Positions 21,501 through 28,045 of a DNA stretch of 64,000 nt are shown here, piece after piece. The DNA comes from Cryomorphaceae bacterium (GTDB taxonomy: Bacteria; Bacteroidota; Bacteroidia; Flavobacteriales; Flavobacteriaceae). A program made the translations under genes and the position numbers. How positions within the stretch are numbered: the stretch's first letter is position 1; each line of letters opens with the position of its first letter. Location of the stretch: positions 1 to 64,000 of the forward strand of contig QOPZ01000002.1 of assembly GCA_003331885.1 (NCBI GenBank). The letters run 5' to 3'. The notes under the pieces were generated by a model, which ran no database searches, had not been told where the DNA came from, and worked only from the letters and a program-made list of their open reading frames with translations.

Positions 21501-22170
21501 TGGTTTCGAAGTCAGAGATGTACACATGACAGATTTAATCTCAGGAAGAGAGACGTTAGAAGATATAAGTTTTTTAGTTGCTGTAGGTGGGTTTTCAAAT
21601 TCAGATGTTCTCGGATCTGCTAAAGGGTGGGCAGGATCTTTTATATATAATGAACAAGCAAATAAAACTTTAAAAAGATTTTACAATAGAAAAGACACAT
21701 TATCCTTAGGTGTTTGTAATGGCTGTCAATTGTTTATAGAATTAGGTTTATTACACCCAGATCATGAGCAAAAACCAAAAATGGATTATAATGAAAGTAG
21801 TAAATTTGAATGTGTATTTACAAGTGTTAAGATTTCTAAAAATAACTCTGTAATGTTTAACAATTTTGGTGATAGCGAGTTGGGTATTTGGTCTGCTCAC
21901 GGAGAGGGAAGATTTAGATTACCAAAATCTGAAAGTGAATATAATATTATTGCTAAATATTCAAACTCCTCCTTCCCTACCAATCCGAATGGATCTGATT
22001 ATGACACCGCTATTATTTCTAATGAAGATGGAAGGCATATTGCAATGATGCCTCATCTTGAAAGATCAACATTTCCATGGAATTGGGGCTATTACCCAAA
22101 ACCAAAAGAAACAGATCAAATATCTCCTTGGATATATGCTTTTATCAATGCATATAATTGGTTAAAATAA
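18532..22170 (+). CDS. purL: Phosphoribosylformylglycinamidine synthase (fused PurL/PurQ)
   Basis: [42 protein letters not shown]; C-terminal GATase [15 protein letters not shown] and HGEGRF. Confidence 0.97.
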   Translation: [1212 protein letters not shown]

Positions 22171-22174
22171 ATTT

Positions 22175-22202
22175 AAATATACTATGCGTGCATAGTATAT
22201 TT
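22175..22202. promoter_or_regulatory. Perfect inverted repeat AAATATACTATGC-GT-GCATAGTATATTT, candidate MarR operator
   Basis: 13-bp arms with 2-bp spacer, 18 bp upstream of the MarR start. Confidence 0.75.
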
Positions 22203-22219
22203 TTTGTATATTTAATTTT

Positions 22220-22651
22220 ATGTCAAAATACACCATTGATCATGAACTGAGGTATACATGGCAGTCTGTTTCTAAGATGTATAATGAAGAGGCTACAAAA
22301 GTAGGTGGATCAATGGCTATTGGTTTTGCTCTTTTAAGTTTAAACCCAAAAAAAGGATTACCATCAACTTCATTGGGTCCTAAAATGGGAATGGAATCGA
22401 CAAGTTTGTCTCGTACTCTCAAAAGTATGGAGGAATATAATCTAATTAAAAGAATTCCTAACCCTAATGATGGAAGAGGTGTTTTAATTGAGTTAACAGA
22501 TTTAGGAATTGAAATGAGAGATGCATCAAAAGATGTGGTAATGAAGTTTAATAGTGTAATTATTAAAAAAATAGGAAAAAAAAATATGGAAGTTTTTTTT
22601 AATGTAATGCACGAAATAAACAAAACAATAAAGAATAAAGAAATATTTTAA
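22220..22651 (+). CDS. MarR-family transcriptional regulator
   Basis: GPKMGMESTSLSRTLKSMEEYNLIKRIPNPNDGRGVLIELTDLGIEM winged-helix motif. Confidence 0.9.
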   Translation: MSKYTIDHELRYTWQSVSKMYNEEATKVGGSMAIGFALLSLNPKKGLPSTSLGPKMGMESTSLSRTLKSMEEYNLIKRIPNPNDGRGVLIELTDLGIEMRDASKDVVMKFNSVIIKKIGKKNMEVFFNVMHEINKTIKNKEIF

Positions 22652-25057
22652 ATGAATACAAAAATATCTAAAGTTGCTGTATTAGGATCAGGAATTATGG
22701 GATCTGGAATTGCTTGTCATTTTGCCAATATAGGGGTTGAAGTTTTACTGCTTGACATATGTCCCAAAGAATTAAATGAAATTGAAAAAAAGAAAAAACT
22801 ATCAATTGAAAGCAAAGAGGTTAAAAATCGTATTGTAAATGAAATGTTTAATAAATGTATTAAATCAAAACCTTCTCCTATTTACAATAAAAAATTTCTT
22901 AAAAGAATTAAGCTTGGAAATTTTGAAGACGATATAAAAAAAATTAATGAAGTTGATTGGATTATTGAAGTTGTTGTTGAAAAACTTGAAATTAAGAAAT
23001 CTGTTTTTGATTTAGTTGAAAAACATAGAAAAAAAGGAACACTTATTACATCTAATACCTCAGGAATTCCGATCAAACTTATGAATGAAGGAAGATCAGA
23101 TGATTTTAAGAAGTGTTTTGCAATAACTCACTTTTTTAATCCTCCAAGATATTTAAATCTATTCGAAGTAGTCCCTGGCCCAAATTGTGATAAATCTGTT
23201 CTAGATTTCTTACTTGAGTACGGAGAAAAATTTTTAGGTAAAACCTCTGTTTTGGCAAAAGATACTCCTGCTTTTATTGGAAATAGAATTGGAATATTTG
23301 GCATCATGAGTTTGTTTCACCAAATTAAAAATGGAGAGTTTTCAATAGAGGAAGTTGACACATTAACTGGACCAGCAATTGGTAGACCTAAATCAGCTAC
23401 ATTTAGAACTGCTGATATTGCTGGATTAGACACTATGTGTCATGTAGCAAATGGAGTTTTTGATAAATGTCCAAATGATGAATCCAGGAATGTATTTAAG
23501 TTACCTGAATTCCTCAATAAAATGCTTAATAAAAACATGCTTGGTAGTAAAACTAATCAAGGTTTTTATAAAAAGACTAAGGATAAAAATGGAAAAACAA
23601 AAATTCTATCTCTTGACTTAAAGACTTTTAATTATAATGATCAAAAAAAAGTAAAGTATGAAACCCTTAGCATTGCAAGAAAGTGTAAAAAAAGAGATGA
23701 AAAATTTAAAATTTTAATAAATGGAAATGATAAAGCGTCTGAATTTTATAGAGAAAATTTTGCTAGAATGTTTGGGTATGTACAAAATAGAATTCCTGAA
23801 ATTTCAGATGATATTGTAAGTATCGACGCGGCACTCAAAACTGGATTTGGTTGGAAAGAAGGTCCATTTGAAATTTGGAATTATATAGGTATTAAAGAGG
23901 GTGTTGAATTAATGAAGCAATTTGATTTAAAACCAGCTGACTGGATTAAAGAGATTATTACTAAAAAAATAAATAGTTTTTATCAAGTTAAAAACGGATT
24001 CATTGAATATTATAACATTGAGTCCAAATCTTTTAACAAAATGCCAGGTCAAGATGGATTTATTATACTTAAAAATGTTCCTGAAAATCAAGTAATATGG
24101 TCAAATAAAGAAGCTAGACTAATTGATATTGGAGACAATATTTTAAATCTTGAGTTTGGTTCAAAAATGAATGCCATAAATCAAAACATAATACAAGCTT
24201 TAGATAAGTCAGTTGATATAGCAGAAAAAGATTTTAAGGGACTTGTTCTTGGAAATGAATCAAGTCATTTTTCAGCAGGAGCTGATTTGAGTGTTATTTT
24301 CCTAGCAGCTATTGAACAAGAATATGAAGAACTTAATTTTTTCATGAAGATGTTTCAAAACACTATGATGAAATTAAGGTATTCATCGATACCAGTTATT
24401 GGTGCTCCTCATGGATACACTTTAGGAGGTGGTTGTGAAGTTTGTCTGCACTGTGATAAATTAATAGCATATAGTGAAACTTACATTGGTCTTGTTGAAG
24501 TCGGTGTTGGACTTATTCCAGGTGGCGGTGGACTTAAAGAAATGACACTTAGAGCATCTGATCAATTTAGAGCAAATGATGTGGAAGTGAATTTACTACA
24601 GGAATATTTTATAAATATTGGGATGGCAAAAACAGCTACATCTGGCTTTGAAGGATTTGATTTAGACTATTTAGTTAAAGGAAGAGATCATGTAATAATG
24701 AATAAAAAAAATCAAATTTCAATAGCTAAAAAAACTGCTCTAAATATGTATGACATGGGTTATACTAGCCCTATCAGAAGAAATGATATCAAAGTTTTAG
24801 GAAAACAAGCTTTAGGAATGATGTACGTCGGAGCTGATTCCATGTTAGCCGGTGGCTATATATCAGAACATGATAAAAAAATAGCTAATAAAGTTGCTAA
24901 TGTTCTATGTGGAGGTGAACTTTCACAGGCTACTAGAGTTTCAGAACAATACTTGTTAGATTTAGAAAGAGAAGCGTTTTTATCTCTTTGTGGAGAAAGA
25001 AAAACTTTAGAAAGAATCCAGTTTATGTTGAAAAATGGAAAACCACTAAGAAACTAA
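22652..25057 (+). CDS. fadN: Bifunctional 3-hydroxyacyl-CoA dehydrogenase/enoyl-CoA hydratase (FadN type)
   Basis: N-terminal Rossmann AVLGSGIMGSGIACHFANIGVEVLLLD; C-terminal crotonase domain (HFSAGADLSV, PHGYTLGGGCEVCLHCD). Confidence 0.92.
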   Translation: MNTKISKVAVLGSGIMGSGIACHFANIGVEVLLLDICPKELNEIEKKKKLSIESKEVKNRIVNEMFNKCIKSKPSPIYNKKFLKRIKLGNFEDDIKKINEVDWIIEVVVEKLEIKKSVFDLVEKHRKKGTLITSNTSGIPIKLMNEGRSDDFKKCFAITHFFNPPRYLNLFEVVPGPNCDKSVLDFLLEYGEKFLGKTSVLAKDTPAFIGNRIGIFGIMSLFHQIKNGEFSIEEVDTLTGPAIGRPKSATFRTADIAGLDTMCHVANGVFDKCPNDESRNVFKLPEFLNKMLNKNMLGSKTNQGFYKKTKDKNGKTKILSLDLKTFNYNDQKKVKYETLSIARKCKKRDEKFKILINGNDKASEFYRENFARMFGYVQNRIPEISDDIVSIDAALKTGFGWKEGPFEIWNYIGIKEGVELMKQFDLKPADWIKEIITKKINSFYQVKNGFIEYYNIESKSFNKMPGQDGFIILKNVPENQVIWSNKEARLIDIGDNILNLEFGSKMNAINQNIIQALDKSVDIAEKDFKGLVLGNESSHFSAGADLSVIFLAAIEQEYEELNFFMKMFQNTMMKLRYSSIPVIGAPHGYTLGGGCEVCLHCDKLIAYSETYIGLVEVGVGLIPGGGGLKEMTLRASDQFRANDVEVNLLQEYFINIGMAKTATSGFEGFDLDYLVKGRDHVIMNKKNQISIAKKTALNMYDMGYTSPIRRNDIKVLGKQALGMMYVGADSMLAGGYISEHDKKIANKVANVLCGGELSQATRVSEQYLLDLEREAFLSLCGERKTLERIQFMLKNGKPLRN

Positions 25058-25058
25058 T

Positions 25059-26240
25059 ATGAAAGAAGCATATATAATTAAAGCATATAGAACTGCAGTT
25101 GGCAAAGCACCAAGGGGGTTTTTTAAATTTAAAAGACCAGATGAATTAGCTGCAGAAACAATTGAATATTTAATTTCACAAATACCTGATTTTGATAAAA
25201 AACTAATTGATGACTTAATTGTTGGAAATGCAATGCCTGAAGCTGAGCAAGGTTTTAATGTAGCTAGATTAATCTCACTAATGGGGTTAAAAGTTGATGA
25301 TGTACCAGGCGTCACAATTAACAGATTTTGTGCATCTGGTCTGGAAACTATTGCTATTGCAACTGCAAAAATTAAATCAGGAATGTCAGATTGTATAATT
25401 GCTGGAGGTGTTGAAAGTATGAGTTATATACCTATGACAGGTTTTAAACCAGTTCCAAATTACAATACTGTATCAAAAGGAAAAGAAGATTACTATTGGG
25501 GAATGGGATTAACAGCAGAACAAGTTGCAAAAGAATATAAAATTTCGAGAGAAAGTCAAGATGTTTTTGCTTATGAATCACATCAAAAAGCAATAAAAGC
25601 TTTGGAAGATGAAAAATTTAAATCTCAGATTGCACCGATTAGCGTAAAGGAAATCTATTTAGATGAAAATTTAAAAAGAAATGAAAGAGAAATGGTTTTT
25701 GACAAGGATCAAGGTCCGCGAAAAGACACAAGCGTTGAAGCTTTATCTAACTTAAGACCTGTTTTTTCAGCAACTGGATCTGTAACTGCAGGGAATTCAT
25801 CTCAAATGAGTGATGGTGCTGCATTTGTAATGATTGTTAGTGAAAAAATGCTAAAAGTACTTAATGTTGAACCAATTGCTAAGTTAGTTGGATATAGTGT
25901 AGCTGGTTTACCTCCTAAAATAATGGGAATGGGTCCAGTAAGAGCTGTTCCAAAAGTTTTAGATCAAGTTGGTATGAAAATAAATGATATTGAACTTATA
26001 GAACTTAATGAAGCTTTTGCATCTCAATCTATCGCTGTTATCAATGAATTAAAACTTGAAAAAAATATTGTAAATGTAAATGGAGGAGCAATTGCATTAG
26101 GTCATCCACTTGGATGCTCTGGTGCAAAACTTTCTGTTCAACTATTTGAAGAAATGAAAAATAGAAAATTAAAATATGGTATGGTAACGATGTGTGTTGG
26201 TACTGGACAAGGTGCTGCAGGAATTTTTGAAAAATTATAA
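25059..26240 (+). CDS. fadA: Acetyl-CoA C-acyltransferase (thiolase)
   Basis: AYRTAVGKAPRGFF, catalytic Cys region NRFCASGLETIA, NVNGGAIALGHPLGCSGAK, MCVGTGQGAA. Confidence 0.95.
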   Translation: MKEAYIIKAYRTAVGKAPRGFFKFKRPDELAAETIEYLISQIPDFDKKLIDDLIVGNAMPEAEQGFNVARLISLMGLKVDDVPGVTINRFCASGLETIAIATAKIKSGMSDCIIAGGVESMSYIPMTGFKPVPNYNTVSKGKEDYYWGMGLTAEQVAKEYKISRESQDVFAYESHQKAIKALEDEKFKSQIAPISVKEIYLDENLKRNEREMVFDKDQGPRKDTSVEALSNLRPVFSATGSVTAGNSSQMSDGAAFVMIVSEKMLKVLNVEPIAKLVGYSVAGLPPKIMGMGPVRAVPKVLDQVGMKINDIELIELNEAFASQSIAVINELKLEKNIVNVNGGAIALGHPLGCSGAKLSVQLFEEMKNRKLKYGMVTMCVGTGQGAAGIFEKL

Positions 26241-26242
26241 TT

Positions 26243-28045
26243 ATGGAAACTTTAGAGAAAAAAATAACAAGGGGAGCTGAATTTATAATCAAACAAACAG
26301 ATTGTAAAGACGTATTCACACCTGAGGATTTCACAGATGAGCAAAAAATGATGAAGGAGGCAGTTCATGATTTTGCTGAAAAAGAAATTTGGAGTAAAAA
26401 AAGTGAATTTGAAAAACACAACTATGATTTAACATTTGATGTTATTAAGAAAGCCGGAGAACTTGGTTTTCTTGGTATAGGTGTGCCAGAGGAATATGGA
26501 GGTTTAGGGATGTCTTTTACCTCTTCTATGTTAGTTTGTGATTATATTTCTGGAAGTTCTGGTTCAACATCAACAGCGTATGGGGCTCATACTGGTATTG
26601 GAACATTCCCAATTTTACTTTATGGAAATGAAGAACAAAAGAAAAAATATGTACCAAAATTAGCTTCAGGAGAACATATTGGTGCATACTGTTTGACTGA
26701 GCCAAGTGCAGGATCTGATGCAAATAATGGAAAAACAAAAGCAGTTCTTTCGGAAGACAAGAAATATTATTTAATTACGGGTCAAAAAATGTGGATTTCA
26801 AACGCAGGATATGCTGATATATTTACAGTTTTTGCTAGAATTGAAGATGACAAGAACATTACGGCTTTTATTGTTCCAAACGATCCAAAAAATGGTATTA
26901 AGTTGGGAAATGAAGAATCTAAACTTGGTATTCATTCCTCATCAACCAGACAAGTTTTTTTTAGTGAAACAAAAGTACCTGTTGAAAATATGATTTCTAA
27001 AAGAGGAAATGGATTTAAAATTGCCTTAAATGCTTTGAATATTGGAAGAATAAAGTTGGCAGCCGCAGCGCTTGATGGAGAAAGAAGAGTAACTAGTTCT
27101 GCAATTCGATATGCTAATCAAAGAGAACAATTTAATTCTAAAATAATTGAGTTTGGTGCTGTAAAGGAAATGCTAGTTAAAATGGCTATGGAAACATATG
27201 TTGATGAATCAGCAACCTACAGAGCATCTAAAAATATTGAAGATAGAATTTCTATTCTCAAGTCAAATGGTAAAACACATCAAGAAGCTGAACTTAAAGG
27301 CGTAGAAGAATATGTAGTAGAATGTTCTATTTTAAAGGTAGCGGTTTCTGAGCATCTTCAAAATTGTACAGACTTAGGAATTCAAATCTATGGTGGAATG
27401 GGTTATTCAACTGAAACTCCAATGGAATCTGCCTGGAGAGATGCACGAATTGCAAGAATTTATGAGGGAACAAATGAAATAAACAGGTTGCTAATAATTG
27501 GAATGATAATTAAAAAAGCACTAAAAGGTCATTTAAATTTAATTGAAAAAGCAGAAGAAGTTGCTAATGAACTTACAGAGATTCCAAGTTTTGATGTTCC
27601 AGAATTTAATGAACTTTTCTCTGAAGAAAAATATCTTATTCAAAATCTTAAAAAAGTGTTCTTAATGCTGGCTGGGGCTGGTATGAAAAAATTTGGAATG
27701 GATTTAGAAAAAGAGCAAGAGGTTTTGTTAAGAATATCTGATATAATAATTGAAATTTATATGTCTGAATCTGCAATTTTGAGGACTGAAAAAAACTCGT
27801 CAAGATATGGTATAGATAAAGTTTCAAGTCAAATTGCTATGAGTAAGCTTTATCTATATCAAGCTTGCGATATAATTATTTCTAAAGCAAAAGAGTTGAT
27901 AGTCTCATTATCTGAAGGAACAGAGCAAAAGTTTTTATTAGCTGGTTTGAAAAGATTTACTAAATACTTTAATTATCCAAATACAATTGAATTAAAAAGA
28001 CAAATTGCTGATGTTTTGGAAAAAGAGAATAAATATCCTTTTTAA
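26243..28045 (+). CDS. Acyl-CoA dehydrogenase
   Basis: GAYCLTEPSAGSDANNGKTKAV, YGGMGYSTETPMESAWRDARIARIYEGTNEINR. Confidence 0.95.
   Translation: METLEKKITRGAEFIIKQTDCKDVFTPEDFTDEQKMMKEAVHDFAEKEIWSKKSEFEKHNYDLTFDVIKKAGELGFLGIGVPEEYGGLGMSFTSSMLVCDYISGSSGSTSTAYGAHTGIGTFPILLYGNEEQKKKYVPKLASGEHIGAYCLTEPSAGSDANNGKTKAVLSEDKKYYLITGQKMWISNAGYADIFTVFARIEDDKNITAFIVPNDPKNGIKLGNEESKLGIHSSSTRQVFFSETKVPVENMISKRGNGFKIALNALNIGRIKLAAAALDGERRVTSSAIRYANQREQFNSKIIEFGAVKEMLVKMAMETYVDESATYRASKNIEDRISILKSNGKTHQEAELKGVEEYVVECSILKVAVSEHLQNCTDLGIQIYGGMGYSTETPMESAWRDARIARIYEGTNEINRLLIIGMIIKKALKGHLNLIEKAEEVANELTEIPSFDVPEFNELFSEEKYLIQNLKKVFLMLAGAGMKKFGMDLEKEQEVLLRISDIIIEIYMSESAILRTEKNSSRYGIDKVSSQIAMSKLYLYQACDIIISKAKELIVSLSEGTEQKFLLAGLKRFTKYFNYPNTIELKRQIADVLEKENKYPF

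Follow-up and report, generated by a model that had tools for sequence, protein, structure and literature searches.

Introduction

In Bacillus subtilis, the FadR regulon comprises the operons lcfA-fadR-fadB-etfBA, lcfB, fadNAE, fadHG and fadF-acdA-rpoE, repression by FadR is relieved by long-chain acyl-CoA, and the fadR gene lies within one of FadR's own operons (PMC4525379). SlyA, one of the regulators with SlyA/MarR-type operators, has at ydhI a site whose centre lies near -35 (PMC6401476).

Bacteroidia are mostly environmental bacteria and, the marine Flavobacteriaceae in particular, major degraders of organic matter. In a literature search of incomplete coverage, no description of a regulator of fatty-acid degradation in Bacteroidia was found. 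Expression of the beta-oxidation genes of F. psychrophilum rises in response to fish mucus and plasma (PMC9723704).

The window analyzed here, that is, the whole stretch of 64,000 nucleotides from contig QOPZ01000002.1 of a Cryomorphaceae bacterium, carries a 28-bp palindrome directly upstream of a marR-fad operon. It is very probably, judging from comparative sequence analysis, the operator of the adjoining MarR, which would repress its own fad operon and other beta-oxidation promoters and would be relieved by acyl-CoA or fatty acid.

Results

The features of the locus, with their coordinates in the window, are the following.

22175..22202, no strand: 28-bp inverted repeat with 13-bp arms and a GT centre, predicted operator
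22181..22196, no strand: conserved operator core ACTATGC-GT-GCATAGT, kept upstream of marR in orthologous loci
22207..22214, + strand: candidate sigma-A -7 box TATATTTA (consensus TAnnTTTG), position conserved in orthologues
22220..22651, + strand: marR, MarR-family winged-helix regulator, 143 aa, PF01047, first gene of the operon
22652..25057, + strand: fadN/fadB, 3-hydroxyacyl-CoA dehydrogenase/enoyl-CoA hydratase, 801 aa, HCDH-ECH domain order
25059..26240, + strand: fadA, acetyl-CoA C-acyltransferase (thiolase)
26243..28045, + strand: fadE, Bacillus-FadE-type acyl-CoA dehydrogenase, NCBIfam NF058590

The palindrome, AAATATACTATGC-GT-GCATAGTATATTT, occupies exactly positions 22175-22202, with two perfect arms of 13 bp separated by a 2-nt spacer, and its end lies 17 nt from the marR ATG (22220). 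The symmetry and the distance to the regulator gene given by an earlier, sequence-only reading of this DNA were thus confirmed. The identities which that reading had assigned to the four genes (MarR, FadN, thiolase and acyl-CoA dehydrogenase) were likewise upheld: the marR product scored 36.4 bits against PF01047 (curated cut-off 24.6), the fadN product is a FadN-type HCDH-ECH fusion, and the fadE product reached 699 bits against NF058590, the NCBIfam model of Bacillus FadE (cut-off 600). The regulator had also been described as embedded in the operon; this had to be corrected, as marR heads the operon and does not lie inside it.

The AlphaFold model of MarR (pLDDT 90) has a MarR fold, resembling DNA-bound MepR (TM 0.86) and DNA-bound SlyA (TM 0.85). 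Orthology to SlyA was not found with the NCBIfam SlyA model (36 bits against a cut-off of 120). A profile search with the marR product matched FabT (6jbx) and CouR (6c28) at the level of distant similarity (E about 7e-7). In a phylum-wide sample, the marR family was confined to the class Bacteroidia.

No other inverted repeat in the window combines perfect arms of 13 nt or more with a spacer of at most 10 nt. In 40 dinucleotide-preserving shuffles of this AT-rich sequence, a mean of 0.25 such repeats per window was obtained and 5 of the 40 contained one or more, so that the palindrome alone is weak evidence and does not go beyond chance. Conservation, unlike the palindrome by itself, exceeds chance, and it is this comparative sequence evidence that settles the question of the predicted operator.

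The comparison covered 80 named loci, largely from Flavobacteriaceae (Maribacter, Muriicola, Arenibacter, Zobellia, Leeuwenhoekiella, Psychroflexus and others). The pattern AYTATGCNNGCATART (AYTATGC-NN-GCATART) was present upstream of marR in all 80, exactly in 77 and with one mismatch in three, while the best match in shuffled upstream sequences had two mismatches. The FadB gene and marR were on the same strand in 80/80 of these loci, with a gap below about 80 nt except in three. Within the genus, the core was found upstream of marR in 18 of the 18 members with an available upstream region. In class-wide loci from other orders, the shorter pattern TATGCNNGCATA (TATGC-NN-GCATA) was exact in 24 of 27, against 0 of 1350 shuffles.

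The conserved unit is a core of 16-18 bp. Left-right complementarity exceeded the column expectation at several positions, up to about +/-12 bp from the centre (80 loci, kinship uncorrected), and this symmetric extent is close to the 28 bp originally noted. The outer bases vary by lineage and tend to remain symmetric, as in GGTATGC..GCATACC. A chance palindrome, or a repetitive element of the REP type, would be in line with the 0.25 repeats expected per shuffled window; it is contradicted by the conservation across families, by the copy number, which is only 1-4 per genome, and by the orthologous position of the copies. This explanation was rejected as next to impossible.

In several genomes (L216, L219, L239 and L247), the space between marR and a divergent gene holds a pair of operators, with about 28-29 bp from one to the other. 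The divergent gene is either ABC transporter-like or an acyl-CoA ligase gene.

In F. psychrophilum, the sigma-A -7 box TAnnTTTG was mapped at -12 to -5 (PMC9723704). In the window, TATATTTA begins 10 nt past the core, and TAnnTTTG starts 9-10 nt downstream of the core in 62 of the 80 loci, compared to a shuffled rate of 2.8% (box anywhere in 25 nt). As the predicted -7 box sits at this distance, the centre of the operator would fall near -29 and the -33 region would lie within it, which corresponds to the geometry of a repressor operator. With the predicted box, the operator overlaps the regulator's own promoter in these 62 loci, the arrangement of an autoregulated operon.

The marR start point is predicted near 22219, which would make the marR mRNA nearly leaderless. 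In this genus, the predicted -7 boxes hug the ATG of both marR (22207-22220) and etfD (L066, near 2482), and both mRNAs would be nearly leaderless. In most other Flavobacteriaceae loci, the gap between the box and the ATG of marR is longer.

All 23 genomes of the genus were scanned with up to 2 mismatches allowed, and the site categories were counted by hand. The 50 sites were distributed as follows: 18 at marR, 19 between etfB and pdhB, 3 at etfD, 5 beside genes that were SusC-like or of other kinds, and 5 regarded as chance. A reversed control pattern was almost without matches. The palindrome was therefore neither concentrated at unrelated loci nor absent from orthologous marR-fad loci: it accompanied marR-fad in 80/80 named loci, and 40/50 genus sites fell at the beta-oxidation loci marR-fad, etfB or etfD, which supports the earlier interpretation as a MarR operator. 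The few genus sites next to SusC-like and other unrelated-looking genes speak against the reading as a MarR regulon.

In some genus members, near-matches adjoin a large secreted-protein gene (L062, L073, L086) and SusC/TonB-type outer-membrane genes (L069, L072). Matches to AAGTATTCRTGCATAGTA in five genus members recur 191 nt from a Mur-ligase-like gene; these were treated as chance, since no gene start adjoins them and a single orthologous place recurs.

The genome scan proposed in the sequence-only reading was also run on the window's own genome (62% complete), where the only other good site was C1:3101, upstream of a gene for a membrane iron-sulfur protein (etfD). Together, this protein and a CCG-type protein encoded two genes on correspond to the two parts of EtfD from M. 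smegmatis (9ojn_A; E values 5.7e-43 and 9.3e-75). EtfD has been proposed as the electron carrier from ETF to menaquinone (PMC13083937). No ETF genes were found in the 62% complete assembly of the window's genome, and their absence is attributed to this completeness.

EtfD in the window's genome (L066:2-2482) is split over separate genes, one for the membrane/4Fe-4S part and one for the CCG part, which flank a small gene, whereas the mycobacterial EtfD is a single chain.

In other families, sites precede the genes for fadE, fadD (AMP-binding acyl-CoA ligase), a FadL-like porin, a FadH-like protein and nitronate monooxygenase (NMO). Where the site lies between the divergent etfB and pdhB, it was accompanied by an exact -7 box facing etfB in 18/28 cases and facing pdhB in 0/28, and control of pdhB is for this reason not favoured.

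The position of the palindrome 4 nt past the purL stop codon (22168-22170) is also what would be expected of an intrinsic terminator of this gene, which lies upstream in 42 of the 80 named loci. Folded as RNA (-10.9 kcal/mol, z -3.1), the palindrome can form a stem of 12 bp capped by a loop of 4 nt, and a T run is found at 22200-22205. However, the stem is AT-rich where a G+C-rich one is typical of terminators, a terminator scan called none, the sequence of stem and loop is conserved beyond pairing alone, and the distance to the promoter box is fixed. The site also stands upstream of marR where the neighbour is not purL, and the same sequence occurs between the divergent etfB and pdhB, where no transcript ends. 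Because sites lie in such divergent, promoter-facing places, termination was ruled out as a general explanation, and it is highly improbable as the role of the palindrome. As a side effect, the palindrome might end some purL transcripts at this locus.

Across 59 genomes of the order, MarR and the motif occurred together in 32 and were both absent from 19; MarR alone was present in 6 and the motif alone in 2 (Fisher p 2e-8, relatedness ignored). An exact TATGCNNGCATA upstream of etfB was found in 8/35 MarR-bearing and in 0/35 MarR-lacking genomes of the class (Fisher p 0.005, relatedness ignored), and three of the eight belong to the order itself. On these sequence counts, the predicted control of etfB is regular within the order and patchy beyond it.

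Certain exceptions were noted. Genome G034 has three motif sites and no MarR match, and in the family to which it belongs (f11), sites were also present at metG-like and RNA-methyltransferase-like genes (L237, L240, L241, L242). Four genus members have the etfB site without a MarR match, and those genomes are 57-85% complete.

G034 could be accounted for if the palindrome were the operator of another transcription factor controlling both marR and the fad genes, and the assignment to MarR is itself made at the level of sequence. However, the most constant location of the site is directly before marR, motif and MarR co-occur, and the 5-bp half-sites with a 2-bp spacer fit the SlyA/MarR type of site. 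Control by another factor is consequently regarded as improbable.

Discussion

From the position of the site, its conservation and its targets, we infer direct binding by MarR, repression rather than activation, and the nature of the ligand. A MarR dimer would bind both TATGC half-sites and lie over the -33 region upstream of the TAnnTTTG -7 box. Bound in this way, it would block RNA polymerase at the promoter of marR-fadN-fadA-fadE, and marR would presumably be autoregulated. The promoters of etfBA and etfD would be blocked as well, and in some families also those of fadE, fadD, fadL-like and fadH-like genes. On accumulation of long-chain acyl-CoA or a related fatty-acid signal, MarR would leave the DNA, and its release would induce the beta-oxidation pathway along with the electron-transfer chain to menaquinone.

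On a broader scale, we lean slightly towards MarR being a class-wide master regulator of beta-oxidation in Bacteroidia, which would have arisen independently of the TetR and GntR FadR proteins, would control a similar gene set including the route from ETF through EtfD to menaquinone, and would sense long-chain acyl-CoA. If true, this would be a clear case of different phyla placing the same regulon under repressors that are unrelated to each other. In the literature searched, no paper on a described regulator matching this MarR was found. With a predicted regulator, an operator and a list of targets at hand, the control of fatty-acid degradation becomes directly testable. If MarR is present in F. 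psychrophilum, it would be a candidate for the induction of beta-oxidation genes by mucus and plasma.

When compared to known systems, the operator resembles those of SlyA (TTAGCAAGCTAA; TTAGC-AA-GCTAA) and E. coli MarR in having inverted 5-bp half-sites that end in GC and are separated by a 2-bp spacer, and the regulators are alike as winged-helix dimers. In contrast, the half-site is TATGC here and TTAGC there, and the targets here are beta-oxidation genes.

The MarR fold is also shared with FabT and CouR. These proteins sense acyl-ACP or aroyl-CoA, so that acyl metabolism is under acyl-thioester control; FabT controls fatty-acid synthesis, and CouR the degradation of p-coumarate.

The gene set is similar to that of the Bacillus FadR regulon, which includes fadNAE, etfBA, an acyl-CoA ligase, fadH and fadF. 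Its counterparts here, pooled over the whole order and not from one genome, are fadNAE-type genes, etfBA, the AMP-binding ligase, a FadH-like gene and EtfD, to which the iron-sulfur protein encoded by B. subtilis fadF is presumably akin. In both systems, the regulator gene lies in an operon under its own operator, which is a predicted one in the case of marR. In contrast, the regulator here belongs to the MarR family and FadR to the TetR family, and AYTATGC-NN-GCATART bears no known relation to the FadR box. By analogy, the marR product may work like FadR while standing outside the FadR family, since it is a MarR-family protein.
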